Shown here piece after piece: positions 46 through 13,715 of a stretch of 20,546 bases of DNA. Where the stretch lies: contig DHHG01000084.1 in NCBI GenBank assembly GCA_002403175.1, positions 1 to 20,546 on the forward strand, in the 5' to 3' direction. Below the pieces are notes generated by a model that was not told the DNA's origin, did no database searches, and saw nothing but the letters and a program-made list of their open reading frames with translations. The first letter of the stretch is position 1. Each line of letters starts with the position of its first letter. The DNA comes from Syntrophaceae bacterium UBA4778 (lineage in GTDB: Bacteria > Desulfobacterota > Syntrophia > Syntrophales > UBA4778). The translations under genes and the position numbers were made by a program.

Positions 46-88
46 GTTAAAAAAAGAACTGGAGCAATGCTCCAGTTCTTTTTTTAAC
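46..88. terminator. Bidirectional intrinsic terminator after hypB
   Basis: A perfect 20-bp inverted repeat (arms 46-65 and 69-88, loop AAT) has GC-rich tips (CTGGAGC/GCTCCAG) and runs of seven A and seven T at the base. It can therefore work as a rho-independent terminator on either strand. The hypB stop codon (84-86) lies inside the distal arm, so it ends the minus-strand operon. The symmetry suggests it also ends a converging plus-strand gene to the left of the window; bases 1-45 hold no recognisable coding sequence. Confidence 0.93.
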
Positions 89-752
89 TAATTGAATCCG
101 TAACTTTTCTACTCAACCAATCCGTCCATGCATCGAATCCCTCTCCCGTTTTTGCAGAAATCGGGAAGATTTCTATATCAGGATTAAGCTTCTTTGCATA
201 TGTCCGTACTTTCTCTATGTCAAAATCAAAGAATGCCGCACAATCAATCTTGTTGATGATCATCGCGTCGACAATCTTAAACATGAGCGGATACTTTAGA
301 GGCTTGTCATGACCCTCACAGATACTCAGAATCATAACGTTTAGGGCCGCTCCAGTATCGAACTCAGCCGGACAGACAAGGTTCCCAACGTTCTCAAGAA
401 TAATCAGATCAAGATCTTTCGTTCCTATCTCGTTCAGGCCCTGCTCGGTCATTCCGGCATCCAGGTGACACATGCCCCCTGTGTGTAGCTGAATGGTACG
501 GATTCCGGTTTTGGCAACTGCAATTGCGTCAACATCGGAATCGATATCAGCTTCCATTACTCCTATTTCTATCTTTTCCTTTAGAGCGCTGATGGTTCGG
601 AGCACCGTCATTGTCTTGCCCGAGCCGGGGGAAGACATCAGGTTGAGAAGACACGTCTTCTCTTCCTTCAGTCTTTTCCTGAGTAAATCAGCAGCCCTAT
701 CATTATTATCAAGAACACTTTTCTTGATTTCGATTATGCGAACTTTATCCAT
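84..752 (-). CDS. hypB: Hydrogenase/nickel-enzyme maturation GTPase HypB
   Basis: HypB is the GTPase that, with HypA, inserts nickel into [NiFe]-hydrogenase (and in some organisms other nickel enzymes) in the cytoplasm. The 222-residue product has the P-loop SSPGSGKT at residues 40-47, the paired Cys95-His96 metal ligands in GGMCHLDAG, the GNLVCPAEFDTG segment and an NKID guanine-specificity motif. The histidine-rich stretch and the N-terminal CxxCGC nickel site seen in some HypB proteins are absent, so this is the short form. I chose the ATG at 752 because GGAG sits 7 nt upstream; an in-frame ATG at 767 lacks such a site. The start overlaps the hypA stop by 8 nt (ATGGATAA), which suggests translational coupling. 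It is the last gene of the operon and ends in the terminator. Confidence 0.95.
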   Translation of the reverse strand: MDKVRIIEIKKSVLDNNDRAADLLRKRLKEEKTCLLNLMSSPGSGKTMTVLRTISALKEKIEIGVMEADIDSDVDAIAVAKTGIRTIQLHTGGMCHLDAGMTEQGLNEIGTKDLDLIILENVGNLVCPAEFDTGAALNVMILSICEGHDKPLKYPLMFKIVDAMIINKIDCAAFFDFDIEKVRTYAKKLNPDIEIFPISAKTGEGFDAWTDWLSRKVTDSIS

Positions 753-1125
753 TTCCCTTCTCCGCATCAGTTGATGAAGATTTCTCCTCTATACCGATTT
801 CTTTTATGAGCAGTCCTCTTCCATCAATCACATCACACTGCTCGCTTGAGCATTCTGGGCATTTCATGTCTGTCTTCGTTGGATTGTAGGTAGTCGCGCA
901 CTCTGTACAGAAAACGATTGCCTCGACCATTTCAATCACCAATTCAGACCCTTCGAGAATCGTCCCTTCGACGACATCGGGGTAGAACTCACGAAGATAC
1001 CGAGGTTCCACCCCGCTGATCTCTCCAACCTGCAATACGACTTTCAGAACTTTGGCAGCATTGTTTTTAACGGCATACTCCTCCACCGTTTTCACAAAGC
1101 TAACTACGATACTCATCTCATGCAT
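745..1125 (-). CDS. hypA: Hydrogenase nickel incorporation protein HypA
   Basis: HypA is a small nickel metallochaperone that partners HypB. The 126-residue product begins with MHE, in which His2 is the usual nickel ligand, and carries a structural zinc site of two CxxC pairs (Cys73/Cys76 and Cys89/Cys92). Length is slightly above the usual 113-120 because of an acidic/serine tail. It starts 15 nt downstream of the oxidoreductase stop and overlaps hypB, so the three genes form one transcription unit. No hydrogenase structural gene lies in the window, so the client enzyme (hydrogenase, or possibly CO dehydrogenase/acetyl-CoA synthase) cannot be told from here. Confidence 0.95.
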   Translation of the reverse strand: MHEMSIVVSFVKTVEEYAVKNNAAKVLKVVLQVGEISGVEPRYLREFYPDVVEGTILEGSELVIEMVEAIVFCTECATTYNPTKTDMKCPECSSEQCDVIDGRGLLIKEIGIEEKSSSTDAEKGNG

Positions 1126-1140
1126 GTGGGTTCCCTTTTG

Positions 1141-3810
1141 CTATTTTCCTGAAATCATTTTTACCGTGATTCGTCCTGCGCGCACCACCGTGGCTTTTGT
1201 AGCCCTTGTGTATAGTTCAAAGAATGTCTTTGCGGGAACGGTCTCGCCGACTCTCTCCAGGTGTATCGCATCGAAATTGCACCGTCTGGTGCAGACGCCG
1301 CAGCCGTAGCAAACGTCTGGATCAACGATGCTCAGACCGCAATGTAGACAGCGTTGCGCTTCTTTCTTGACCTGCTCTTCGGTAAGGCCTGCACGCAGGT
1401 CGGCAAAGGTGGTCTTTGCCAGCGTAGGATCGACCGGTCTCATCATCTGCCTGGGGATGCGGTCATAACTGGAGGTGTCGAGCTTTTTCTTATCAAGTGC
1501 TACGTAGTCTTGTTCGCGGTTCATGAACAGATCCAATCCCAGTACATACCGAGAGATAGATTCCGCACCCTGCTTTCCGTTTGCAATAGCATCTATTGCA
1601 AACTTGGGTCCGGTAACCACATCTCCACCTGCGAACACATCGGGCGCTGCCGACTGGAAGGAGACATCCGCAACCTGAATCCTGTTGCGTCCATCGAGAA
1701 TGATCTTTTCGCCCTTGTTCAAATTGCCCCAGTCGATCATCTGACCGATGGCGAGAAGAACTTTGGAAGCTGGTATGGTGATGGTTACCTTTTCATCATA
1801 CTTCGGAGCGAATCGGCCATTATCAAATACCGATACGCATTTCTTGAACTCTACGCCGGTCACTTTTCCTTCTTTCGATAGAATTCGCTTTGGTCCCCAT
1901 CCGTTGTTCAGTACGATGCCTTCTTCTTTTGCCTCTTGCTGTTCTTCCTTAAGAGCAGGCATCTCTTCCGCGCTTTCAAGACAATAAAGATTAACGCTTT
2001 CAGCGCCCGCCCGGACTGCCGCGCGTGCTACGTCGATGGCCACGTTTCCGCCGCCTACAACAATAACCGGTCCTTCCAGTTTTACGTTGCTGTCCAAGTT
2101 GACGCTACGGAGGAATTCAATTCCGTTGATGACATCTCCAAGGTTTTCTCCTTCGATGCCGAGAGATGCGCCTTTCTGGGCTCCAATCGCAACATAGAAT
2201 GCCTTATACCCTTCTTTACGGAGTTTTTCAATCGTAGTATCCTTGCCAACTTCAACACCGGTCTTGAATTCGATCCCCAGTTCTTTCAGGATATTGATCT
2301 CCGTATTAATGACATCCTTATCCAGACGGAAGGAGGGGATACCCAGGGTCAGCATTCCGCCGAGTACTTTCTCCCTCTCGAATACCGTTACCTTATAACC
2401 CTCGATGGCGAGATAGTAAGCGCAGGTTAAGCCGGCAGGTCCGGCACCGATGACCGCAATCTTCTTGCCGGCCTTCGCTGAAGGATCGTATTCGGTCTTG
2501 ATCTGCGGGATGAACCGATTCTCGGAGTTGCGTTCCTGATCGGCGATAAACATCTTGATAGCATCAATGGCAAGCGCCTCGTCTACCGTGCCGCGCGTAC
2601 ATTCACTTTCGCAGGGGTGAGGACAAATCCTTCCGCAGACGGCGGGGAAGGGGTTGTCTTTCTTGATCACTTCCAAAGCCTCTCTGTATTTTCCCTCGGC
2701 TGCTTTCTGGATATAACCCTGTACGGAAATATGCGCGGGGCATATTGTCTTACAGGGCGCCGTGCCTCTGTTCGATACGATCTTTTTATCCCGGTAATTT
2801 TCATTCCACATGCCTTGGCCCCAAAGGCTATTCTCGGGTATTTTGGTCTTTTCGATCTGAGTCTCTATCGATTTGCACAGACCGTCTCCCAATTTGATAG
2901 CATTCATCGGACAGACAGAAACGCATTCACCACAGGCCACGCATTTCTCTTGATCTATCTTCGCTATGAAATTGGACTTGCAGAATCCTGCCCCGCCGAA
3001 CTGTTTGACGGTTCTGAATCCGGCGCACGAACAACCGCAGCAGTTGCAGATATAAGAGGATTCGCCGAGTCCCTCAGTCGCAAAGACGTGATGAACAAGA
3101 CCGGCCTTCTCCACGAAATCCAGAATCTTGAGAGCCTCTTCCTTGCTGACCTGCCTGCCTCTCTTGGTTTTGATGTAGTATACGGCATGCGGTCCGAGCT
3201 GAAAGCACGTATCCTCTATGGGGTGATCACATCCCTTCCCGAGCATTCTCATGGATTCACGACAGAGGCACGGGGCAACAGTTACGCATTCCGCCTCCAT
3301 GATGTACCTTTTTATATCTTCAGAAGAAAGGATCTTTGACTGTGCCGCTATCTCCTTCATGACCGGGACGGTTTTCATCATGCCGGCGTCTTTTCGCCCC
3401 AGAAGACCAAACAAGTATGGCATCTGCTGATCCCCTGGCATATCCACAAACAATTGGGCCATTTCCTTGTCTAGGGTTCTGCGGTCCATCATGTACTCAT
3501 AAATACCCGGAACAAAAGGAGCCAGACGATAATACGGCTTATCTTTGATGAAATGCGCGAAGATGGCACCGTGATCCGCCATGTTCCAGAGCATCTTGCT
3601 GACCTGTTCTACCGGTCGGCCAACTTTTTTGGCGTAATCTTCGGCGGAGATCGGTTTCCTTGTCAGGTGCATTCCCAACTCAGCTTCTTCCGCTGAAATC
3701 AGTTTTTTGAGAATCTTTACCCAGACCGAGCTCTCCATTACCGGTCCGATCATAAGACCCCCATGCCAGCTAACGCGGTTAGCAAACTTACAGTGAGCGC
3801 TCCTAGCCAT
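1141..3810 (-). CDS. Multidomain Fe-S/FAD/NAD(P) oxidoreductase (glutamate synthase small-subunit-like core)
   Basis: An 889-residue cytoplasmic electron-transfer flavoprotein. In order: a winged-helix-like N-terminal region (about 55-110); a cysteine-rich part with CLC near 181-183 and the cluster CNCCGCSC at 255-262; a ferredoxin-type 4Fe-4S motif CVACGECVSVC at 290-300; a GltD/DPD-type Fe-S domain with cysteines from 353 to 404; an FAD Rossmann motif IGAGPAG (454-460); a second nucleotide site VVGGGNVAID (584-593); an FAD-closing motif AGGDVVTGP; and a C-terminal 4Fe-4S pair (CLHCG at 821, CYGCGVCTRRC at 834-844). This core is known in NADPH-dependent glutamate synthase small subunits and NfnB-like transhydrogenases. 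The actual donor and acceptor are unknown. The ATG follows GGAGGG closely. Placement before hypAB and behind operator-like repeats suggests a hydrogen/redox role. Confidence 0.85.
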   Translation of the reverse strand: MARSAHCKFANRVSWHGGLMIGPVMESSVWVKILKKLISAEEAELGMHLTRKPISAEDYAKKVGRPVEQVSKMLWNMADHGAIFAHFIKDKPYYRLAPFVPGIYEYMMDRRTLDKEMAQLFVDMPGDQQMPYLFGLLGRKDAGMMKTVPVMKEIAAQSKILSSEDIKRYIMEAECVTVAPCLCRESMRMLGKGCDHPIEDTCFQLGPHAVYYIKTKRGRQVSKEEALKILDFVEKAGLVHHVFATEGLGESSYICNCCGCSCAGFRTVKQFGGAGFCKSNFIAKIDQEKCVACGECVSVCPMNAIKLGDGLCKSIETQIEKTKIPENSLWGQGMWNENYRDKKIVSNRGTAPCKTICPAHISVQGYIQKAAEGKYREALEVIKKDNPFPAVCGRICPHPCESECTRGTVDEALAIDAIKMFIADQERNSENRFIPQIKTEYDPSAKAGKKIAVIGAGPAGLTCAYYLAIEGYKVTVFEREKVLGGMLTLGIPSFRLDKDVINTEINILKELGIEFKTGVEVGKDTTIEKLRKEGYKAFYVAIGAQKGASLGIEGENLGDVINGIEFLRSVNLDSNVKLEGPVIVVGGGNVAIDVARAAVRAGAESVNLYCLESAEEMPALKEEQQEAKEEGIVLNNGWGPKRILSKEGKVTGVEFKKCVSVFDNGRFAPKYDEKVTITIPASKVLLAIGQMIDWGNLNKGEKIILDGRNRIQVADVSFQSAAPDVFAGGDVVTGPKFAIDAIANGKQGAESISRYVLGLDLFMNREQDYVALDKKKLDTSSYDRIPRQMMRPVDPTLAKTTFADLRAGLTEEQVKKEAQRCLHCGLSIVDPDVCYGCGVCTRRCNFDAIHLERVGETVPAKTFFELYTRATKATVVRAGRITVKMISGK

Positions 3811-5283: not shown

Positions 5284-5428
5284 TCCTGAAAAAAATACCG
5301 GTAACAAATTATGTTTTTAAAATCAGCTACATAAATAGCAAGCAGATATGTCCGCCTCATGGCACGGAATCTGCTACAAGCGGAAAAGTTCAGGTTGGAA
5401 TGATTGGCTTTAGGAGGGCATTCCGAAA

Positions 5429-6373
5429 TTGACAGAAAAAACCGTTGCCGTTGTTTTTCCCGGGCAGGGCTCACAGCGTCCCGGCATGGGGAAAGACTTT
5501 TATAGTGAAATTAAAGAATGTCGCGAAGTTTACGAAGAGGCCTCTGATTCTCTCGGCTGGGATGTTGCCGCGATGTGCTTCGGAGAAGATGATCGCCTTA
5601 ATATGACAGAGTTTACTCAGCCCTGTATTGTCGCGACTGAAATAGCCATGTTGCGCGGTTTGAAAGCGCTTTATGAATTTTCCCCCGAGTTTTTTGGGGG
5701 GCATAGTCTGGGCGAATTTACCGCTCTGGTTGCTTCCGGATTTATGCCGTTTGCCGCTGCTGTAAAGATTGTCCATGTCAGAGGGCGCCTCATGCAGGAG
5801 GCGGTGGCGGTAGGAACCGGCAGCATGTCGGCTGTGATTTCAGAGAATCTGGACACGGAAAACATTCGCACGGCGCTTTCGGGTATCCCTGTTGACATTG
5901 CCAATATAAATTCCGCAAACCAGATAGTAATCAGCGGTGCGGCCGCGGCAATGCCATATGCGGAAGAGTTGATGAAGGATGCCCTTGGGGGGCGACCTTT
6001 TCGGTTCGTCGCTTTGAATGTAAGCGCGCCTTTTCACAGCCGGTTTATGAGCACAATCAAAAATTCTTTTTTGGAAACGCTTCAAAAATACGGAAGCGCC
6101 ATGATTGCGGAGAAGGCCACCTGTGTCACCTCGAATTATACCGGAGACTTTCATTGTGGCAATATATCCAAAATTCAGGGAAATCTGGTGGCTCAATTAA
6201 GTAATGCCGTGAATTGGCGAAGCAATATGGAACAGCTTTCGTCTAAGGCAAACAGCATTTACGAAGTCGGCCCGGGCCGTCCGTTGAGGGATTTTTTCAA
6301 AACAATCGGCGTGGGTTGCTCGTCCATAACTACGTTATCAGCCGCAAGGAAAACGTTGGAAGAGAACTTGTAG
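5429..6373 (+). CDS. fabD: Malonyl-CoA:ACP transacylase (FabD-type)
   Basis: Transfers malonyl groups from CoA to the acyl carrier protein, supplying extender units for chain elongation. The 314-residue product has the oxyanion motif PGQGSQ (11-16), the nucleophile elbow GHSLGE with Ser93, the malonate-carboxylate-binding Arg118 in RGRLMQEAV and the catalytic His203 in PFHSRFM. Length is normal for the family. The TTG start at 5429 is favoured because AGGAGGG lies 10 nt upstream and the protein then begins with the usual TVAVVFPGQGSQ. It is the first gene of a ten-gene co-directional cluster that contains its own carrier protein. As FabD-type enzymes also occur as discrete trans-acyltransferases, a dedicated rather than housekeeping role is likely. 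Confidence 0.93.
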   Translation: MTEKTVAVVFPGQGSQRPGMGKDFYSEIKECREVYEEASDSLGWDVAAMCFGEDDRLNMTEFTQPCIVATEIAMLRGLKALYEFSPEFFGGHSLGEFTALVASGFMPFAAAVKIVHVRGRLMQEAVAVGTGSMSAVISENLDTENIRTALSGIPVDIANINSANQIVISGAAAAMPYAEELMKDALGGRPFRFVALNVSAPFHSRFMSTIKNSFLETLQKYGSAMIAEKATCVTSNYTGDFHCGNISKIQGNLVAQLSNAVNWRSNMEQLSSKANSIYEVGPGRPLRDFFKTIGVGCSSITTLSAARKTLEENL

Positions 6374-6463
6374 GATTCGAATCGAATCGGACCATGCGAT
6401 ACTAACCGGATGTCCGGGATCAATAAAGCCGAATCGGCCTTATAAAGGAGTTGGGGGGAGAGA

Positions 6464-7639
6464 ATGGATTTTGATCTGAATGAAAATCAAAGAATGTATG
6501 TGGAGACCGTTCAGAAATTTGTACGGGGGCGGATTACGCCCAATATTTTGAAATTGGAAAAGGATCATGCTTTTCCTTGGGATATTATCGACAAGGCCTG
6601 GGAGCTTGGACTTTTGAACCTGAGTATCCCGGAATCGGTCAAAGGTTTCGAAATCGATCCTGTCTCCAGCGCTTTGATAATCAAAGAACTCTCTTACGGG
6701 GATACGGGAATTTCCACGTCCGCCATGTGCAATGATCTGGCCAATGTCGTTATTGCGCAGCATGGAAATGAAAGTCAAAAACAGGAATTCTTAGGTCCGT
6801 TTGTGGAGAAATCTTCTTTGGCTTCATTTTGCCTCACCGAGCCAGGGGCAGGTTCAGATAATTCCGCCATGACCTCCTGCATAACGAAGGTGGACGGAGG
6901 TTACATTCTGAATGGAGCTAAATGTTTCATTACGAATGCATCGTTTGCTTCACAGTTCACTGTTTTCTGTAAGGTAGGCAAACCGACCTCTAATTTCATG
7001 GCCTGCGTTATTGTGCCGGCGATCGGCGTAAAGAGGGAGGGCAACACCGAACTGGAAGCTAAAAATGGTGGAAAGATCATCATCGGCAATCCGGAGGAAA
7101 AGCTGGGGCAGAGATTATCCAATACGGCAACAGTTACGTTCGAAGATGTCGTCATCAAAGATGAGCAGATCATCGGTGATCGGCGCTTCGGCTTCAAATA
7201 TGTGATCGATGTTCTCGATTATGCCCGTCCTATGGTGGCCGCAATCGGCGTGGGACTCGCCAAACGCGCGCTGGATGTTACCCTGGAGTATACCAGGGAG
7301 CGGAAGCAGTTCGGGCAACGGATCTGCGATCTACCGGTTGCGCGAGAAATCCTGGTGAACATGTGGAAAAAGGTCGAATTGGCTGAACTGGCCCTGATCA
7401 AGGCGGCTGTAAAATGTCAGGAGCTGGCGCCCGACCGAGGCCTGTATGCATCGTTGGCGAAGAACACCGCTGCCGAAACGGCGCTTTACTGCGCCAATGA
7501 GGGGCTTCATCTGCATGGAGGCTACGGCTTCATGAACGAGTACGAAATTTCCAAACTCGTCAGGGATGCCCATATCATAGATATCTATGAGGGTGTGCGG
7601 GAAATTCAAAATATGATAATAGGCCGGGAACTGATTTAA
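6464..7639 (+). CDS. Acyl-CoA dehydrogenase family protein
   Basis: A 391-residue FAD enzyme of the acyl-CoA dehydrogenase fold. The family normally oxidises acyl thioesters to trans-2-enoyl thioesters. It shows the FAD/substrate signature LTEPGAGSDN, the RKQFG motif of the C-terminal domain and the catalytic base Glu376 in IYEGVREIQ, so it should be active. A segment of about 15 extra residues lies before the LGQRLSNT motif. Its gene sits between fabD and a KAS III-like gene in a fatty-acid-synthesis-type operon that has no FabI, FabK, FabL or FabV. It may therefore act on carrier-bound chains, either as the missing enoyl reductase (reverse direction) or to add or remove a double bond. An ordinary beta-oxidation role is less likely from context. 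An ATG at 6464 follows a purine-rich GGGGGGAG. Confidence 0.9.
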   Translation: MDFDLNENQRMYVETVQKFVRGRITPNILKLEKDHAFPWDIIDKAWELGLLNLSIPESVKGFEIDPVSSALIIKELSYGDTGISTSAMCNDLANVVIAQHGNESQKQEFLGPFVEKSSLASFCLTEPGAGSDNSAMTSCITKVDGGYILNGAKCFITNASFASQFTVFCKVGKPTSNFMACVIVPAIGVKREGNTELEAKNGGKIIIGNPEEKLGQRLSNTATVTFEDVVIKDEQIIGDRRFGFKYVIDVLDYARPMVAAIGVGLAKRALDVTLEYTRERKQFGQRICDLPVAREILVNMWKKVELAELALIKAAVKCQELAPDRGLYASLAKNTAAETALYCANEGLHLHGGYGFMNEYEISKLVRDAHIIDIYEGVREIQNMIIGRELI

Positions 7640-7759
7640 GTTTAATGTAGCTCTTTAACATTGCTTCAATTACTGCCCGCGATGAATCTCGGGATGGGCT
7701 TTGTTCTAAGACTTTGAATGACATAGCGAATTTCAATACCGTTTAAGGAGAAATAGAAC

Positions 7760-8752
7760 ATGCTTTATATCCATGGAATGGGCCATTTTTATCCGGAAAA
7801 TGTTATTACCAACCAATTTCTGGAAGATCTTGATATTGGCACCAATTCGGAGTGGATTTTGGACAGAGTCGGTATACAGAGTCGTAGGACCTGTATGTCT
7901 CTTGATTATATCAAGACCACCAAAAATCGTGACCCCCGGGCAGCATTGGAGGCATCTCTCTACGGCGATGCGCAAACCGGCGCTGCGGCAGCAAGAATGG
8001 CGCTGGATAGGGCGGGTTTGAAAGCGGAAGATATCGGGATGGTTATTTCCGGCAGCTCGGCTTCGGATTATGTATCTCCCGCCCAAGCCGCATTAATCGC
8101 GGCAGAACTGGGTATTGAGGTACCGTGTTTTGATCTGAATTCCGCCTGCACGACCTACGGGATGCAGATCGATTTTCTAAACAAAATGAAAGCCGATGCA
8201 CTGCCGCCCTTCGTGTTAATCGTCAATCCGGAGAACTTTACGCGGGTGCTGGATTACTCGAATCGCAGTGTGGCCGTTCTCTTCGGGGATGGAACCTCGG
8301 CATCTGTTATTTCTACGGTCAATCCGTCGCCTGTTGCCGTGATGACCAGTGAATCGGACTCGAAACCTTCCTCCTGGATGAAGGTGTTTGTGCCCCGGAT
8401 GGGTTTTTTTGAGCAGGACGGACATGCCGTTCAGGGCTTTGCGATCCGCAAATCGACGGATGGCCTGCGGAGCTTGCAATCGATATCAAAGGCAGGTCCG
8501 GAGCGGTTTATTTACATCGGACACCAAGCCAATCTGGGCATGCTTAAAACGGTTTGCGAGCGTTGCGAAATAGGGGAAAAGAATCACTGGTCCAATGTGG
8601 CCGAATATGGAAATACGGCCAGCGCCGGAGCCCCCGGGACCTTAAGCCTTCATTGGGATGAATTGAAAGCAGGATATGATATCGGAATCTCCATCGTCGG
8701 CGCAGGGCTGACGTGGGTTAATTTATTGATAAGCGTAGCTGAAGGAAAATAA
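7760..8752 (+). CDS. Beta-ketoacyl-ACP synthase III-like (FabH-type) starter condensing enzyme
   Basis: KAS III enzymes condense an acyl-CoA starter with malonyl-ACP to begin a chain. The 330-residue product has the thiolase fold and the full Cys-His-Asn triad: Cys130 in LNSACTTYG, His255 in YIGHQAN and Asn285 in YGNTASAGAP. The N-terminal WILDRVGIQSRR matches the conserved WI..R.GI..RR of the family. Divergence from housekeeping FabH over much of its length suggests an unusual starter, which the sequence does not reveal. AAGGAG lies 9 nt before the ATG. The gene follows the dehydrogenase after a 120-bp gap that holds a small imperfect hairpin (CCCG.../...CGGG around 7677-7694), and runs 7 nt from the dehydratase gene. 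Confidence 0.88.
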   Translation: MLYIHGMGHFYPENVITNQFLEDLDIGTNSEWILDRVGIQSRRTCMSLDYIKTTKNRDPRAALEASLYGDAQTGAAAARMALDRAGLKAEDIGMVISGSSASDYVSPAQAALIAAELGIEVPCFDLNSACTTYGMQIDFLNKMKADALPPFVLIVNPENFTRVLDYSNRSVAVLFGDGTSASVISTVNPSPVAVMTSESDSKPSSWMKVFVPRMGFFEQDGHAVQGFAIRKSTDGLRSLQSISKAGPERFIYIGHQANLGMLKTVCERCEIGEKNHWSNVAEYGNTASAGAPGTLSLHWDELKAGYDIGISIVGAGLTWVNLLISVAEGK

Positions 8753-8759
8753 GGATATT

Positions 8760-9350
8760 ATGAAATATTCAGAATTCAAAAGCAGAAATGAGTTTAATCA
8801 TGAAGAAATCCTGGCGTTCTGTTACGGCAATCTGGTATCAGATCCTCCGGAAAATTTTGATGCGCGCTTGCCGGCTCCCCCGTTTCTCATGGTGGATAAC
8901 ATTCTTTCCATTCAAAGCAAGGGACGGCAGGGGACGATCATCGCCGAACAGACCGTTCGTCTGGATGCTTGGTATTTCCAATGCCATATGCCGGGAGATC
9001 CGGTCCAGCCGGGATGCCTTGGTATCGATGCCATCTGGCAGCTGCTGGGGTTTTATTGTGTCTGGCGAGGATCATTGGGCTCGGGTCGGGCATTGGGTTG
9101 CGGAGAGGTCGCCTTCAACGGTCAGATTCGCCCTTATAATAAGAAGGTACGTTATGAAGTCGATGTGCGCCGCTTTTCGTCTTTAAAGGAATCGGGCGCC
9201 AGCGTCGTAATTGCGGATGGCCGTATTTTTGTGGACGGAGAGTTGATTGCGCTGGTTAATCAGGCACGGACAGGAGTTTTTAAAAATATCGCATACAGGG
9301 ATTATCCTAAGCGATCTAAGAATTCTGTTGGCGGGATCATAAGGGAATAA
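8760..9350 (+). CDS. fabA: FabA-type 3-hydroxyacyl-ACP dehydratase
   Basis: The 196-residue product aligns along its whole length with E. coli FabA, which dehydrates 3-hydroxydecanoyl-ACP and can isomerise trans-2 to cis-3 double bonds. The catalytic pair is present: His76 in CHMPGDPV and Asp90 in PGCLGIDAIWQL, followed by the typical GRALGCGEVAFNGQ. It is slightly longer than FabA (171) because of N- and C-terminal extensions. The gene lies 7 nt after the KAS III-like gene and 1 nt before the ketoreductase gene, so translation is probably coupled. FabA is usually paired with FabB to make unsaturated fatty acids anaerobically. Whether isomerase activity is retained cannot be seen. A second, FabZ-type dehydratase lies two genes on. 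Confidence 0.9.
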   Translation: MKYSEFKSRNEFNHEEILAFCYGNLVSDPPENFDARLPAPPFLMVDNILSIQSKGRQGTIIAEQTVRLDAWYFQCHMPGDPVQPGCLGIDAIWQLLGFYCVWRGSLGSGRALGCGEVAFNGQIRPYNKKVRYEVDVRRFSSLKESGASVVIADGRIFVDGELIALVNQARTGVFKNIAYRDYPKRSKNSVGGIIRE

Positions 9351-9351
9351 A

Positions 9352-10080
9352 ATGGAAGAGAAGCGTGTAGCGATTGTAACCGGAGGAGGGACCGGAATCG
9401 GAGAAGCCTGTTGCCGGGCCTTTGCGAAAGCGGGGTTCCGAGTTGGCATTCAGTACAGGAGCAGCGAAGATAAAGCCAAAAAGCTGCTGTCCGAAATCGG
9501 AGACGGTTTTCTCCTGAAAGCGGATATTACCGAAATCGACCAGGTTGAAGCCATGGTGGCTGCCATCAAAGAAAATGCAGGGAGGGCAGATGTCCTGGTA
9601 AACAATGCGGGAGTTTCCATCAACGCCGATATCAACAGCATGAGAATGGAGCAGTTTGATGCCCAGCGAGCCCTGACCCGCGGGACATGGTATCTGACGA
9701 AAAGAATCATTCGCCTTTTCATGCTTCGCAAAAATTATGGAAGGATTATTAATATTTCGAGTGTAGTAGGTCATACCGGCAATGCCGGACAGATTGTATA
9801 TACAATGGAAAAAGCGGCGCTGGATGCCTTTTCCAGATCGTTATCCAAAGAGCTTGCAGGGCGCGATATACTAATCAATTCGGTGGCCCCCGGATTTATC
9901 GAAACATCGATGACGGATGAACTGCCGGAGGAAATTAAACAGAAAATACTCTCAAATATCACCATTGGTCGCATGGGGCGGCCCGAAGAGGTGGCCGAGG
10001 TGGTCGCGTTTCTGGCCACAGGCGGCTCTTACATTACAGGGAGTGTGATTCATGTCAATGGAGGGCTTTATGGAGGCTGA
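9352..10080 (+). CDS. fabG: SDR-family 3-oxoacyl-ACP reductase (FabG-like)
   Basis: A 242-residue classical short-chain dehydrogenase that would reduce the 3-oxoacyl chain to 3-hydroxyacyl using NAD(P)H. It has the cofactor motif TGGGTGIG (residues 10-17), NNAG in strand 4, Ser in NISSVVG and the YTMEK form of the catalytic YxxxK, ending with ITGSVIHVNGG as in FabG. The Asn of the N-S-Y-K tetrad, expected in the NLTGVF-type helix, is not found: the aligned stretch reads ALTRGTWYLTK. This may change proton relay or substrate range. The start at 9352 follows AAGGGA and is 1 nt from the preceding stop. The gene overlaps the next one by 29 nt or, if the later ATG is used, 11 nt. Confidence 0.9.
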   Translation: MEEKRVAIVTGGGTGIGEACCRAFAKAGFRVGIQYRSSEDKAKKLLSEIGDGFLLKADITEIDQVEAMVAAIKENAGRADVLVNNAGVSINADINSMRMEQFDAQRALTRGTWYLTKRIIRLFMLRKNYGRIINISSVVGHTGNAGQIVYTMEKAALDAFSRSLSKELAGRDILINSVAPGFIETSMTDELPEEIKQKILSNITIGRMGRPEEVAEVVAFLATGGSYITGSVIHVNGGLYGG

Positions 10081-10582
10081 TGCGGGGACCAGAGAGCTGG
10101 TCCTCAGTGCTATTCCCCAGAAGTATCCGTTCCGCTTTATTGATGAAATCCTGGAATTGGATGAAATGCGTATAAAAGGCGCCTATCGCTTTCGTGAAGA
10201 CGAGTATTTTTACAAAGGCCATTTTCCCGAAAGACCGATTACGCCCGGCGTCATTCTTATCGAGACAATGGCTCAGGCGGGAATCGTTGCCTTGGGTATA
10301 TACATCCTTATGAAAGAGATGAAACTTGGCTTTGAGCAGATAAAGGACATCATCACTCTTTTCAGCTATGCGGAAGGGGTCGAATTTCTCTATCCTGTTT
10401 TTCCGGGTGAAAGGGTGATCATTCATGGAGAGAAGATGTATTTTCGAAAAGGACGCATGAAAGCCAAAGTTTCCATAACTCATGAGGATGGTCGATTGGT
10501 CTGTAGCGGCATTTTGGCGGGTATGGAGCAATTCTATTCAAACGGAAAACAGGCCGATTTATCGGTCCGTGAATCAATCTAA
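10052..10582 (+). CDS. fabZ: FabZ-type 3-hydroxyacyl-ACP dehydratase
   Basis: A 176-residue hotdog-fold dehydratase. The N-terminal IPQKYPFRFIDEI corresponds to the IPHRYPFLLVD of FabZ, and the catalytic His57 in YKGHFPERPITPGV and Glu71 in IETMAQAG are present. It removes water from 3-hydroxyacyl-ACP to give trans-2-enoyl-ACP. Compared with FabZ (about 150 residues) it has a longer C-terminal tail. Two starts are credible: ATG at 10052 with AGGGAG 8 nt upstream, and ATG at 10070 with GGAGGG 4 nt upstream. Both overlap the reductase gene, so coupling is likely. Together with the FabA-type enzyme it gives the operon two dehydratases, perhaps for different chain lengths or for retaining double bonds. 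Confidence 0.88.
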   Translation: MSMEGFMEADAGTRELVLSAIPQKYPFRFIDEILELDEMRIKGAYRFREDEYFYKGHFPERPITPGVILIETMAQAGIVALGIYILMKEMKLGFEQIKDIITLFSYAEGVEFLYPVFPGERVIIHGEKMYFRKGRMKAKVSITHEDGRLVCSGILAGMEQFYSNGKQADLSVRESI

Positions 10583-10611
10583 ACTTTCCTTTGTATAGGA
10601 GGTCTTTGGAA

Positions 10612-11880
10612 GTGAAAAATAGAGTCGTTGTAACCGGTATGGGTATTATAGCACCCAACGCCAATGGTCTGCAGCAATTTGAGGAAGCTCTTCGGGAAGG
10701 AAGATCGGGGATACGCTTCATTCCCAAACTTCAGGAGCTGAACTTTGCCTGCCAGATCGGAGGGGTGCCACAGGATTTTCAGGCGATACGGGACAGTTAT
10801 TTCAATCCGGAAGAGATCATGTCCATGAACGAAAACATAGGATATGCATCCGTAGCCGCGGTAGATGCCTGGAAAGATGCCGGACTGAAAATCCCGGAAG
10901 GGGATGAGGTGGATTGGGGCAGCGGAGTTATTGTCGGCTGCGGTATTGGCGGAATGGATACGATCGCTGAGACTATCGTTCCCCTGGTCAACCAGGGGAA
11001 GGTTCGCCGGTTGGGAAGCAGGGTTGTCGAGCAAGTCATGAACAGCGGGACAAGCGCCCGGATCTCAGGCTTGCTGGCGCTCGGCAACAAAGTCAGCTCC
11101 AACTCATCCGCGTGCAGTACCGGAACGGAAGCTATTGTAGACGCAATGCTGCGTATCCGAATGGGGCTGGCCAAACGTATTCTGGCCGGTGGAGCCGAAG
11201 GGTCATCTCCCTATATCTGGGCGGGATTCGACGCGATGAAGGTGATTGCCAGAAAATACAATGATCAACCCCAGATGGGATCGCGTCCGATGAGCGCGAG
11301 CGCAAACGGTTTTGTTCCCGGTTCCGGATGTGGAGTTCTTGTCTTGGAAGAACTGGAGAGTGCTCTCAAACGTGGAGCGAGGATTTATGCGGAAATCTTG
11401 GGGGGAACTGTGAACTGCGGCGGTCATCGCAACGGAGGCTCAATCACTGCGCCGAATCCTGAAGGGGTTAAGCGCTGCGTACAGACGGCTGTGGCGGATG
11501 CGGGCATTCATGCCGACGAAGTGGACGCTATCAATGGGCATCTCACAGCGACCTTTGCCGATCCTATGGAGATCAAAAACTGGTCCATCGCACTCGAAAG
11601 GGGACCAGAGCGATTCCCGTTTGTGAATTCGACCAAATCGCTGATCGGCCATTGTCTTGGCGCTGCGGGAGCCCTCGAAAGCATCGCGGCGGTTCTGCAG
11701 TTGCACAAGGGATTTCTACATCCCTCTGTCAACTGTGAAGATGTCCATCCGGATATTGAGGCATATAGCGATAAAATCCCACGAACTTGCATGAAAATGC
11801 CGGATATGAAAGTAATGGCCAAAGCCAGCTTCGGCTTTGGTGACGTGAACAGCTGCTTAATATTTAAAAAATGGGAGTAA
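10612..11880 (+). CDS. Beta-ketoacyl-ACP synthase (KAS I/II-like elongating enzyme)
   Basis: A 422-residue decarboxylating condensing enzyme that extends carrier-bound chains by two carbons. The Cys-His-His triad and Lys are intact: Cys168 in SSACSTGTEA, His310 in INGHLTAT, Lys342 and His347 in STKSLIGHCLGAAG. Two segments differ from FabB/FabF: the usual HGTST is HLTAT, and the RPFDxxRDGFVxGEGAG motif is RPMSASANGFVPGSGCG. It therefore looks like a separate subfamily rather than the housekeeping enzyme. I chose the GTG at 10612 because AGGAGGT lies 8 nt upstream and the protein then begins MKNRVVVTGMG; an ATG at 10591 would precede that site. A lone condensing subunit without a chain-length-factor partner fits fatty-acid-like rather than aromatic polyketide chemistry. 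Confidence 0.9.
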   Translation: MKNRVVVTGMGIIAPNANGLQQFEEALREGRSGIRFIPKLQELNFACQIGGVPQDFQAIRDSYFNPEEIMSMNENIGYASVAAVDAWKDAGLKIPEGDEVDWGSGVIVGCGIGGMDTIAETIVPLVNQGKVRRLGSRVVEQVMNSGTSARISGLLALGNKVSSNSSACSTGTEAIVDAMLRIRMGLAKRILAGGAEGSSPYIWAGFDAMKVIARKYNDQPQMGSRPMSASANGFVPGSGCGVLVLEELESALKRGARIYAEILGGTVNCGGHRNGGSITAPNPEGVKRCVQTAVADAGIHADEVDAINGHLTATFADPMEIKNWSIALERGPERFPFVNSTKSLIGHCLGAAGALESIAAVLQLHKGFLHPSVNCEDVHPDIEAYSDKIPRTCMKMPDMKVMAKASFGFGDVNSCLIFKKWE

Positions 11881-12024
11881 GGCTATTCGAAAAGATCAGC
11901 CGCTAATCTCATTCACTCAGGAAAGAGTGATATTGGATTTCCGGGTATCTTGCGCAAACGATGAATTTCCCCCGGTTGCCGGGAGGACTTGAAATTTTAA
12001 TTAGAAAAAGAAGGAGAGAATAAA

Positions 12025-12273
12025 ATGGAAGAATCAAAAATTTTCGAAGAAATGTTGAACATACTGAAACCCTATACGAAAGATCCGTCTTTATTGGAAA
12101 AGGCGACCAAAGAAACCCACATTCTTAACGATCTTAAGGTCAATTCCGCAAGATTGGTCGATGTGATCATCAAATGCGAAGATGTTTTCGGGCTGACCAT
12201 CGATGACGATGAAGCCGATAAAATCGGTACGATCGGAGATGCGGTTTCTCTGATTAAGCAAAAGTTGGGGTAA
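12025..12273 (+). CDS. Dedicated acyl carrier protein
   Basis: An 82-residue acidic four-helix carrier protein that holds the growing chain on a 4'-phosphopantetheine arm. The attachment residue is most likely Ser41 in LKVNSARLVDVI. The familiar DSL is NSA here, so the Asp before the Ser and the Leu after it are both replaced. This could make it dependent on the PPTase encoded two genes downstream. The C-terminal half (IDDDEADKIGTIGDAV) matches normal ACP helix III. A good ribosome site (AAGGAGAG) lies just upstream. A 144-bp leader separates it from the synthase gene and carries two small hairpins (TCACTC/GAGTGA at 11913-11930 and CCCGG/CCGGG at 11971-11983), perhaps allowing separate, higher expression. 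Confidence 0.9.
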   Translation: MEESKIFEEMLNILKPYTKDPSLLEKATKETHILNDLKVNSARLVDVIIKCEDVFGLTIDDDEADKIGTIGDAVSLIKQKLG

Positions 12274-12280
12274 GCTTACC

Positions 12281-13108
12281 ATGGGGAAGATGGCGAAAGA
12301 TCTTTTGCGACTTCAGACCTGGCTGGTTCGTCTGATGCTCCCTTTTACCGTTACGCTTTATTTCCTTATCATCCGGGCGGCTGGTTACCGGGTCCGGGAT
12401 ATTGAAAGGATTCGGCGGGAGTGCCTTGAGCAGTTCAGCAGGCATCGCGGTCCATGGGTTGTCTGTGCCAATCATCTGACGTTGATCGATTCCATGATTT
12501 TGGTCTATGGAATGCTGTCTTTCACTAGCCATTTTACAAATTACAGGAATGTTCCCTGGAATCTGCCCGAGCAGGACAACTTTCATAAAAAGAATTTTCT
12601 CATTGCCGTCCTTTGCTATATTGCAAAGTGCATCCCGATCAACCGCGGCGGGGATCGTGATGAGATGAAGAAGACGCTGGATAAATGCAATTATGTCTTA
12701 AGCAAAGGACAGAGTCTGATGATTTTTCCTGAAGGGGGAAGATCTCGGACGGGAAGGGTCGATACGGAAGGATTTTCGTACGGAGTCGGCCGGTTTGTAA
12801 AGGATCATCCGGATTGCAAGGTGATGTGTTTATATTTAAGAGGCGATCACCAGGTGACTTACGGGAACTTCCCTCAGATCGGAGAGCATTTTTCCATGAT
12901 GATGGAGGTGCTTGAACCCGGACCATCGGATTATAGCGGGATGCGGGCGCAACGGTTTTATGCCGAGCAGATTATTCAAAAACTGGCCCGCATGGAGGAG
13001 AATTATTTTGCCATACATCGGGAACGACGTCGTCAACTTGAGCGATTCGCAAGCCCGTGCAAAGAGCGGGAATATTCGGTTTCTCAACCGGGTCTTTACC
13101 CAAAATGA
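12281..13108 (+). CDS. PlsC-like lysophospholipid/glycerol acyltransferase family protein
   Basis: A 275-residue membrane-associated acyltransferase of the PlsC/LPLAT superfamily that would move an acyl chain from ACP or CoA to an alcohol acceptor. A hydrophobic segment at residues 15-33 could anchor it in the inner membrane. The catalytic HX4D is His65-Leu-Thr-Leu-Ile-Asp70 (NHLTLIDS), and the acceptor-phosphate motif is FPEGGRSRTG at 149-158. The acceptor cannot be deduced; lysophosphatidate is the classic one. The gene begins 7 nt after the carrier protein gene, and its last 101 bp overlap the phosphopantetheinyl transferase gene in another frame. In this cluster it is a good candidate for the release or transfer step that places the product in a lipid. 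Confidence 0.88.
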   Translation: MGKMAKDLLRLQTWLVRLMLPFTVTLYFLIIRAAGYRVRDIERIRRECLEQFSRHRGPWVVCANHLTLIDSMILVYGMLSFTSHFTNYRNVPWNLPEQDNFHKKNFLIAVLCYIAKCIPINRGGDRDEMKKTLDKCNYVLSKGQSLMIFPEGGRSRTGRVDTEGFSYGVGRFVKDHPDCKVMCLYLRGDHQVTYGNFPQIGEHFSMMMEVLEPGPSDYSGMRAQRFYAEQIIQKLARMEENYFAIHRERRRQLERFASPCKEREYSVSQPGLYPK

Positions 13109-13715
13109 ACAGGACCTGATTTGCCGTTCCATCGATCCGGATCTTGCCGTCTGGTCTTTATGGGCGGCTAAGGAATCGGCTTATAAAGCCATCAGCAAAA
13201 AGAGGATTGGAATCACCTCTTCGCCGCGAAAATACGAAATCAAGCTGGATTCCAGTCCACGACATGGTTTTTTAACCGGTGCAGCGATCACCCCCGCTGA
13301 ACCGGTTTTTTTTAATTTGTTTTCCGGAACCGATTTTGTTCATTGCGTTGCAGCCGAATCTCGTACAACGCTGAATTTAATTCTTTGGGGAATGGAGCGC
13401 TCCGATACCGGATGTTATCAACGTGGAGCTTTCCACGGATTTCAGGATGAGTCCGCAACGGCACGCATGGCGGCTGTAAGCGCGATTGCGGCTTATCTGG
13501 GAGTCAAACCCGAAGACGTGAATATTCGACGGGATCGGCATTCGGGGAGCCTGTGCCCTCCAGTGGCCTACTTAAAAGGAGAAAGGATTAAGGGCGATTT
13601 GAGCCTGAGTCATGATCTTCCCTTTATCGCATATGCCTTTATGCCCGAGATTGGAATTGTACCTGCTGGGGGCGGGAATAATCATCCGAGTTTGGCGCGT
13701 TTAGGATTTCAATGA
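13008..13715 (+). CDS. 4'-phosphopantetheinyl transferase
   Basis: Converts the apo carrier protein to its active form using coenzyme A. The 235-residue product shows the first Mg/CoA motif GNDVV with Asp7 and the second motif LWAAKESAYKAISK with Glu56 and Lys60. A C-terminal half resembles the Sfp/EntD-type end (LSLSHDLPFIAYAF). I set the start at the TTG at 13008: GGAGGAG lies 7 nt upstream and the product then begins MPYIGNDVV, as family members do. An ATG at 12912 would add 32 unrelated residues read from the acyltransferase gene. The start lies 101 bp inside that gene, so translation is probably coupled. The 3' end overlaps the convergent RNase D-like gene by 77 bp. It probably serves the operon's own carrier protein. 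Confidence 0.9.
   Translation: MPYIGNDVVNLSDSQARAKSGNIRFLNRVFTQNEQDLICRSIDPDLAVWSLWAAKESAYKAISKKRIGITSSPRKYEIKLDSSPRHGFLTGAAITPAEPVFFNLFSGTDFVHCVAAESRTTLNLILWGMERSDTGCYQRGAFHGFQDESATARMAAVSAIAAYLGVKPEDVNIRRDRHSGSLCPPVAYLKGERIKGDLSLSHDLPFIAYAFMPEIGIVPAGGGNNHPSLARLGFQ

Follow-up and report, generated by a model that had tools for sequence, protein, structure and literature searches.

A stretch of 20,546 nucleotides from Syntrophaceae bacterium UBA4778 (contig DHHG01000084.1; hereafter the window) carries, at 5429-13715, ten plus-strand genes that form an intact operon for a type II (dissociated) fatty-acid synthase. It is an order-wide, second synthase of this type and varies a kind of system already known; its surprising part is the likely use of an acyl-CoA dehydrogenase, seemingly an enzyme taken over from fat breakdown, as enoyl reductase. 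The reading favoured here, with a probability of roughly 0.6, is that of a second, inducible synthase of the Syntrophales in which the dehydrogenase would run in reverse with electron-transferring flavoprotein (ETF), FabA would introduce a double bond, a PlsC-like enzyme would transfer the chain, and transcription would be under sigma-54 control. Gene content, gene order, motifs, a promoter-like site and a separate fabF in relatives can all be read directly from the sequences. An earlier reading of the window from its letters alone (the sequence-only reading) had been silent on four points: that no enoyl reductase is present, what the dehydrogenase probably does, the promoter of sigma-54 type, and conservation across the order. 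No account of the operon was found in the open-licence PMC literature, subscription papers lying outside this scope, nor any of an acyl-CoA dehydrogenase serving as enoyl-acyl carrier protein (ACP) reductase.

Layout and active sites of the operon

The genes run in the order FabD, acyl-CoA dehydrogenase, 3-ketoacyl-ACP synthase (KAS) III, FabA-type protein, short-chain dehydrogenase/reductase (SDR) ketoreductase, FabZ-type protein, KAS II, ACP, PlsC-like protein and Sfp-type phosphopantetheinyl transferase (PPTase), an arrangement that is far beyond chance. Six of the nine junctions overlap or lie at most 8 bases apart, and the other three are gaps of 90, 120 and 144 bases. The features are listed below.

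5360..5375, plus strand: sigma-54 (-24/-12) promoter-like site TGGCACGGAATCTGCT, differing from TGGCACGN4TTGCW at 1 position; fabD starts 69 bases further on
5412..5417, plus strand: Shine-Dalgarno sequence AGGAGG of fabD, ahead of its TTG start codon at 5429
5429..6373, plus strand: FabD-like malonyl-CoA:ACP transacylase (GHSLGE); PF00698 91.5 bits, TIGR00128 243.3 bits (cut-off of 260.9 unreached)
6464..7639, plus strand: acyl-CoA dehydrogenase family protein, proposed enoyl-ACP reductase; PF00441/02771/02770
7760..8752, plus strand: KAS III-like starter ketosynthase (Cys130-His255-Asn285); PF08541/08545
8760..9350, plus strand: FabA-type 3-hydroxyacyl-ACP dehydratase/isomerase (His76/Asp90); NF003509 198.4 bits (cut-off 124), FabA matches in PDB
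9352..10080, plus strand: SDR ketoreductase, FabG-like (Ser137, Tyr150-x3-Lys154); PF13561/PF00106, TIGR01830 238.6 bits (cut-off of 297.75 unreached)
10052..10582, plus strand: FabZ-type dehydratase (His57/Glu71); PF07977 58.9 bits
10591..11880, plus strand: KAS I/II-like elongating ketosynthase (Cys175-His317-His354); TIGR03150 316 bits (cut-off of 493.75 unreached)
12025..12273, plus strand: ACP with attachment Ser41 in VNSARL; PF00550 20.1 bits (cut-off 20.8), NF009104 53.9 bits (cut-off 70)
12281..13108, plus strand: PlsC-like membrane acyltransferase (NHLTLID, FPEGGRS); PF01553 51 bits
13008..13715, plus strand: Sfp-type PPTase (GND...WxxKExxxK); PF01648 47.6 bits

The coordinates and family matches bear out the description, in the sequence-only reading, of ten co-directional and closely packed genes. 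Its count of two dehydratases was correct, with the difference that the two are of separate types, the first being FabA-type (His/Asp) and the second FabZ-type (His/Glu). The PPTase most likely starts at the TTG at 13008, within the 3' end of plsC, rather than at 12912, because the PPTases of relatives have a median length of 231 residues.

Nine of the ten operon proteins matched their expected Pfam family at the gathering score, the exception being the ACP, and most NCBIfam equivalog cut-offs were unreached. The ACP matched NCBIfam ACP models with E down to 1.3e-14, below their cut-offs in score. The FabA-type protein, above the cut-off of NF003509, gave 159.6 bits against TIGR01749 (cut-off 238.15), and the elongating ketosynthase (KS) scored 316 bits with the FabF model and 259 bits with the FabB model, both below cut-off. 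Sfp-type PPTases are about 230 residues long and bear GND and WxxKExxxK motifs. The operon protein agrees with this type in length, motifs, Pfam match and PDB profile, the profile search returning holo-ACP synthases (best E 1.1e-5) and a single-sequence PDB search returning nothing. For the PlsC-like protein, a single-sequence PDB search was likewise empty and a profile search gave only 5kym (E 0.59); a structure model with a mean pLDDT of 80.8 matched GPAT1 8e4y (E 2.2e-5) with a TM score of 0.50 by query length and 0.23 by target length.

In an alignment of relatives, the checked active-site residues were identical in every open reading frame (ORF) copy having a residue at the given column (37 to 74 copies per family). 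This holds for Ser93 of FabD (38/38), Glu376 of the dehydrogenase (63/63), the Cys-His-Asn triad of KAS III (74/74), the His/Asp dyad of FabA (37/37), which together with the NF003509 score places the protein in the FabA family, the ketoreductase residues (55/55), the His/Glu pair of FabZ (59/59), the attachment Ser of the ACP (41/41) and His65/Asp70/Glu151 of the PlsC-like protein (45/45). In the elongating KS, the Cys was found in 58/58 copies and each His in 56/58, the other 2 being gapped. The PPTase residues G37, N38, D39, W84, K87, E88 and K92 (numbered from 12912) were near-invariant in 50 copies. The active sites are therefore intact in the operon's discrete KS, ketoreductase, dehydratase, ACP and malonyl transferase, as in a type II fatty-acid synthase. 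The divergent motifs reported by the sequence-only reading were not confirmed, the residues checked being canonical and invariant.

Conservation, a separate fabF and the promoter-like site

A contig scan of genomes yielded 300 relatives, and the analysis went on with the 80 best loci. Gene content was judged in the 39 loci that span enough sequence, 41 too-short loci being excluded, and a stricter FabA score was used, by which weaker FabA matches in L061 and L066 are spurious. All ten genes were found in the same order in 16 of these loci, while 11 lacked FabA only and 8 lacked fabD only; the remainder comprised one without a ketoreductase match, one without the PPTase and two with KAS III alone. 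The sequence-only reading had asked whether the ten-gene order is kept in relatives, and it is thus complete in 16/39, with a single gene lost in most others. In addition, the pairwise distances of nine operon genes correlate at 0.69 to 0.88, as expected if the genes travel together. Lone KAS III relatives, with none of the other nine genes seen in the available stretch, were observed in L048, L049, L053, L057 and L073, and in L057 an NtrC-type activator and a kinase lie near the gene.

Distribution across whole genomes was counted with KAS III alone as the marker, not with the whole operon. KAS III reached E 1e-80 in 117 of 149 genomes sampled from the order Syntrophales, that of G001 (the genome of locus L002, Syntrophaceae). 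In a sample of the phylum, 12 of 297 genomes gave at least 488 bits and the next genome 127 bits. Among the best 120 of 1549 matches, the nearest KAS III relatives, where named, were proteins of Syntrophales and other deltaproteobacterial metagenomes.

Ten cluster-bearing relative genomes (G001 to G010) were tested for a housekeeping synthase. Each of the ten has exactly one fabF above the curated cut-off (613-648 bits), which lies off the cluster contig, so that in none of them is the operon the sole fabF-bearing locus. In G001 this fabF adjoins FabD- and FabG-like genes, with yceD, rpiB and glyA, named by eye, around it, and only two full-length KS genes occur in that genome overall, the operon included. 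AcpS was above cut-off in 8/10 genomes, with fragments only in G004 and no match found in G005, and PlsC-family matches number 4 to 10 per genome, counting that of the operon. The operon is thus very likely not the housekeeping synthase, a conclusion that for the window genome is carried over from relatives. It accords with the sequence-only reading, which saw a self-contained, secondary synthase and would have given this up had no other fabD/fabF/acpP locus existed.

Upstream of fabD, the site listed above resembles the sigma-54 consensus TGGCACGN4TTGCW and was equalled in none of 100 shuffles. A site with at most three mismatches precedes fabD in 34 of 40 loci that have fabD and upstream DNA, the window included (1 mismatch in 7, 2 in 16, 3 in 11, and more mismatches or no site in 6). 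Among control plus-strand ORFs of the same loci, 5/203 had such a site; this control came from a simple ORF caller and includes operon-internal genes, which makes it a rough yardstick. In clusters without fabD, the site moves to a position before the dehydrogenase gene, with at most three mismatches in 8/8. At the sequence level, a sigma-54 promoter is accordingly indicated both by the site and by its conservation in relatives. Furthermore, an NtrC/AtoC-type activator and/or its sensor kinase lies divergently upstream in 23 of 40 loci whose upstream DNA is long enough, a set without the window. The single kinase scanned has HisKA and ATPase domains, with a 7TM-sensor match below cut-off.

A proposed role of the acyl-CoA dehydrogenase in enoyl reduction

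FabI, FabK, FabL and FabV are the recognised enoyl-ACP reductases, and none of them was found among the ten operon proteins with Pfam and NCBIfam models. The place of an enoyl reductase in the operon is occupied by the acyl-CoA dehydrogenase, which has the N-terminal, middle and C-terminal Pfam domains of its family and the catalytic Glu in IYEG. Its nearest solved structure is the medium-chain acyl-CoA dehydrogenase 3mdd (239.6 bits), and among NCBIfam models that of acryloyl-CoA reductase scores highest (253 bits, cut-off of 640 unreached), a match that does not settle the direction. The dehydrogenase is kept in all 57 clusters covering its place, and FabA in 40 of them.

Enoyl-ACP reduction is most likely the task of the dehydrogenase, chiefly because it and an SDR occupy one place and are not seen together in the clusters read. 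In three divergent clusters (L104, L105 and L106), an SDR of 311-316 residues lies directly upstream of KAS III, between fabD and KAS III in L104 and L105, and in L106 without a fabD match. HSIGF-type sequences and the spacing Tyr-x6-Lys, as against Tyr-x3-Lys, separate reductase types. Aligned with E. coli FabI, the SDRs have HS(V/L/I)A(F/Y) where FabI has HSIGF and keep the Tyr-x6-Lys of FabI, unlike the operon ketoreductase and a FabG, which have Tyr-x3-Lys. Scores for the SDR were 687, 428 and 382 bits in its own three genomes, and in 17/17 dehydrogenase-type genomes they did not exceed 70.1 bits. L104 has the complete layout with a separate ketoreductase. When a tree of the KS alone is rooted on housekeeping FabF, its deepest branches are L105 and L104, not counting L024, which is there as a wrong paralogue. 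The sigma-54 site was not found before the three SDR-type clusters (none, 6 and 6 mismatches). In G144, the operon adjoins an aryl-polyene-like cluster (L108 and L104) with ammonia-lyase-like, large exporter-like, KS-KS and acyltransferase-like proteins, named by reading their sequences.

A precedent for enoyl reduction by this protein family is found in Syntrophus aciditrophicus, in which acyl-CoA dehydrogenases reduce enoyl-CoA in concert with ETF and a membrane ETF:methylmenaquinone oxidoreductase, according to the part of PMC8805022 consulted. That system, too, has an acyl-CoA dehydrogenase as an ETF-fed enoyl reductase; it works on CoA esters in energy metabolism, whereas the operon enzyme would work on ACP in synthesis. 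The electrons of the operon dehydrogenase would probably likewise come from a flavoprotein. Furthermore, no FabI was found in the ten relative genomes, where matches to E. coli FabI peak at 64 bits, and the FabK model was above cut-off in 0/10; FabV models were silent in the ten genomes and silent in the controls too. Across 59 genomes of the phylum, none exceeded the cut-off of the FabI model and 4 reached 296-326 bits. G001 to G010 thus show no clear housekeeping enoyl-ACP reductase either, FabI being not found and FabK relatives appearing only under the cut-off.

Several observations weigh against the favoured reading. The direction of the dehydrogenase is unreadable from its sequence, and no etf genes were found in the operon. 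HliR, whose closest relative is TcsD, represents the same protein family in a carrier-protein pathway; such dehydrogenases of polyketide clusters oxidise, according to the portion of PMC4768178 seen, whereas the operon enzyme is proposed to reduce. FabK-family relatives at 221-279 bits (cut-off 453) occur in 9/10 genomes, and a divergent FabK could serve the cycle. In L104, L105 and L106, no dehydrogenase was found in a search covering the cluster region only. Among the L105 and L106 copies scanned with NCBIfam (L104 was not covered), FabL ranked first for the L106 SDR (121 bits) and second for that of L105 (112 bits), with the cut-off of 328 unreached. In PDB, the L105 SDR matched glucose/ribitol dehydrogenase (72.5 bits), dienoyl-CoA reductase (72.1) and enoyl-ACP reductase (70.4), which gives no decision. 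L105 and L106 lack a ketoreductase match, so the SDR might be the ketoreductase there. The KS-only tree places L106 inside the dehydrogenase types, and a concatenated tree, built from full-length plus-strand copies only, groups the three SDR types with a support of only 0.61 (L104+L105 0.98); by these trees, either a dehydrogenase or an SDR may have been the ancestral enzyme at this place. In addition, no sensor-activator pair was found among the upstream proteins scanned in the window, as in 17/40 loci, and 17 of 57 clusters do without FabA.

In the proposed mechanism, the operon's own PPTase would activate its own ACP, FabD would load malonate onto the ACP, and KAS III would start the chain. 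The cycle would then be run by KAS II, the ketoreductase and FabZ, with the dehydrogenase acting in reverse as enoyl-ACP reductase, most likely fed by reduced ETF. Where FabA is present, it would provide a cis double bond, and the PlsC-like enzyme would take the chain off ACP and attach it to a glycerolipid. The sigma-54 promoter would drive transcription, controlled by a sensor and an activator that resemble AtoS/AtoC. We infer the direction of the dehydrogenase, its electron donor, the activator at the promoter, the unsaturated product and the glycerolipid target. A bolder version, which we regard as tentative, is that the synthase is wired to the respiratory chain: electrons for the last reduction of each cycle would come from ETF and the menaquinone pool, not from NAD(P)H, and the lipid composition of a syntroph's membrane would follow the redox state shared with the methanogen partner, under a sigma-54 system with a membrane-bound sensor.

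The foremost rival explanation is a maker of polyene or polyunsaturated chains, which would lack an enoyl reductase by design; FabA would isomerise, the dehydrogenase would add a double bond and the acyltransferase would place the chain on a lipid. The lack of a FabI-, FabK- or FabV-type protein among the ten fits this, as do the oxidising HliR and its closest relative TcsD (PMC4768178, in the part seen) and the PigA and RedW models, which gave 177 and 155 bits on the dehydrogenase, far below their cut-offs. Several relatives also bear radical-SAM KS clusters elsewhere, of a kind linked to polyunsaturated hydrocarbons in the sections consulted of Rattray et al. (PMC2649909). However, a FabI/FabL-like SDR stands at the dehydrogenase place in three divergent clusters and has no close match in 17/17 dehydrogenase-type genomes, a whole clade (support 1.0) has lost FabA whereas the dehydrogenase remains in 57/57, and G001 has the operon and only two full-length KS genes, so that no other KS cluster is needed. 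We therefore consider this explanation unlikely.

Somewhat less probable still is a division of labour resembling Helicobacter pylori FabX, in which the dehydrogenase would oxidise a saturated medium-chain acyl-ACP to the trans-2 form, FabA would give the cis-3 form, the KS would elongate and another reductase would run the cycle. FabX performs both steps in one protein, as far as the consulted part of PMC8626469 goes, FabA and the dehydrogenase share one operon, and FabK-family proteins occur elsewhere in 9/10 genomes. The same part of that source has FabA alone able to form the double bond by dehydration, though, and none of the 17 clusters lacking FabA has lost the dehydrogenase; moreover, a FabI/FabL-like protein at the same place would be unexpected for an oxidising step. 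FabX is similar to the operon system in bringing dehydrogenase-type chemistry on acyl chains into fatty-acid synthesis; it belongs to the FMN nitronate-monooxygenase family (PMC8626469, in part), whereas the operon protein is of the acyl-CoA dehydrogenase family and is proposed to reduce.

A synthase with a special starter is about equally improbable. Here KAS III would take a host-specific acyl-CoA (e.g. cyclohexanecarboxyl-CoA in Syntrophus), giving omega-cyclic or branched lipids, in keeping with a KAS III that is dedicated, distinct and below every NCBIfam cut-off, and with the cyclohexene- and cyclohexadiene-carboxyl-CoA handled by S. aciditrophicus (PMC8805022, in the part available). 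Against it stand the same operon in Smithella loci and the lack of a starter-supply gene among the recurrent neighbour families looked at. The known diet of Smithella differs from that of Syntrophus. Finally, that the operon serves this organism as its sole, housekeeping synthase is highly improbable, given the separate fabF above cut-off in 10/10 cluster-bearing relatives, beside fabD and fabG in G001.

Likely product, known systems and significance

The product would most likely be an unsaturated acyl chain set on glycerolipids. Unsaturated chains are suggested because the FabA-type protein exceeds the NF003509 cut-off and keeps its dyad in 37/37 copies, and FabA points to ordinary unsaturated chains rather than the unusual acyl chain that the sequence-only reading had proposed as one of two options, the other being a secondary lipid. 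A FabA-KS-PlsC mini-module in G003, with proteins 67, 66 and 54% identical to those of the window and a TetR gene beside it, fits a unit that may make an unsaturated chain and place it on a glycerolipid. This mini-module lies at L102 4462-7983 on the minus strand, next to the TetR-family gene, in a genome that also bears the full operon. Judging from gene content, unsaturation is an added function and cannot be the core one, because FabA is absent from 17/57 clusters. The FabA-less loci form one clade in the concatenated tree (20 loci, support 1.0). FabA was found elsewhere in the genome in 3/4 genomes tested that have FabA-less clusters, and above cut-off in 9/10 cluster-bearing genomes tested. 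In 11/22 FabA-less loci, a pyruvate carboxylase B / transcarboxylase-like gene was observed, its family named from the L015 copy; it sits between fabD and the dehydrogenase gene in L046, L051, L061, L063, L066, L068 and L074. A flavodoxin/FMN-reductase-like gene occurs in 12 loci, as found downstream of the PPTase gene in L029.

Compared with a housekeeping type II synthase (fabD-fabG-acpP-fabF), the operon is alike in its separate FabD, KAS III, ketoreductase, FabZ, KAS II and ACP with canonical active sites, and differs in its separate locus, its own PPTase, PlsC-like enzyme and FabA, its sigma-54 type promoter and the acyl-CoA dehydrogenase at the position expected for an enoyl-ACP reductase. 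It resembles the FabA/FabB pathway of the E. coli type in having a His/Asp FabA-family protein that shares an operon with a KS, a likeness extending to the mini-module of G003 (L102); in contrast to that pathway, its FabA lies inside a full dedicated synthase and is missing in one clade, and its KS is nearer FabF than FabB.

Ladderane and polyunsaturated-hydrocarbon clusters of Kuenenia and Desulfotalea share a type II KS, dehydratase and ACP with the operon, and carry radical SAM and phytoene-desaturase-like proteins (Rattray et al., PMC2649909, in the sections consulted). Radical SAM, CrtI-like and aromatic-lyase families were not found in the 20 window ORFs scanned, and a ladderane cluster was rejected for want of a radical SAM or phytoene-desaturase-like gene among them. 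Aryl polyene clusters combine a KS, a chain-length factor and an aromatic starter lyase; such a cluster was also rejected, the window having one KAS I/II with an intact Cys-His-His and no lyase in the 20 ORFs. The sequence-only reading had likewise taken the operon for neither an obvious ladderane nor an aryl polyene cluster. Separate KS clusters resembling the Kuenenia/Desulfotalea ladderane type were observed in L097, L098, L099, L100, L101 and L103; they combine a PlsY-like gene and two paired KS genes with radical SAM proteins, one of them B12-binding, and FabA adjoins the cluster in L097, L098 and L099. Of these loci, four L097 proteins, the CrtI-like FAD protein of L101 and the PPTase domain of L103 were scanned and the remainder judged by eye; one of three L097 radical SAM matches was below cut-off.

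The operon is flanked by minus-strand genes on both sides. Upstream lie HypA-like and CobW/HypB-like genes and an FeS/FAD oxidoreductase of 889 residues, which adjoin one another at 84-3810, and downstream a 3'-5' exonuclease with HRDC, a hydrolase, MarC and others.

If the favoured reading is true, the dehydrogenase would be a further, unrelated solution to enoyl-ACP reduction beside FabI, FabK, FabL and FabV. Lipid synthesis would be tied to flavoprotein electrons in organisms that live near the thermodynamic limit. The operon would also be how Syntrophales probably come by unsaturated membrane lipids, and would provide regulated control over membrane composition in syntrophic growth.

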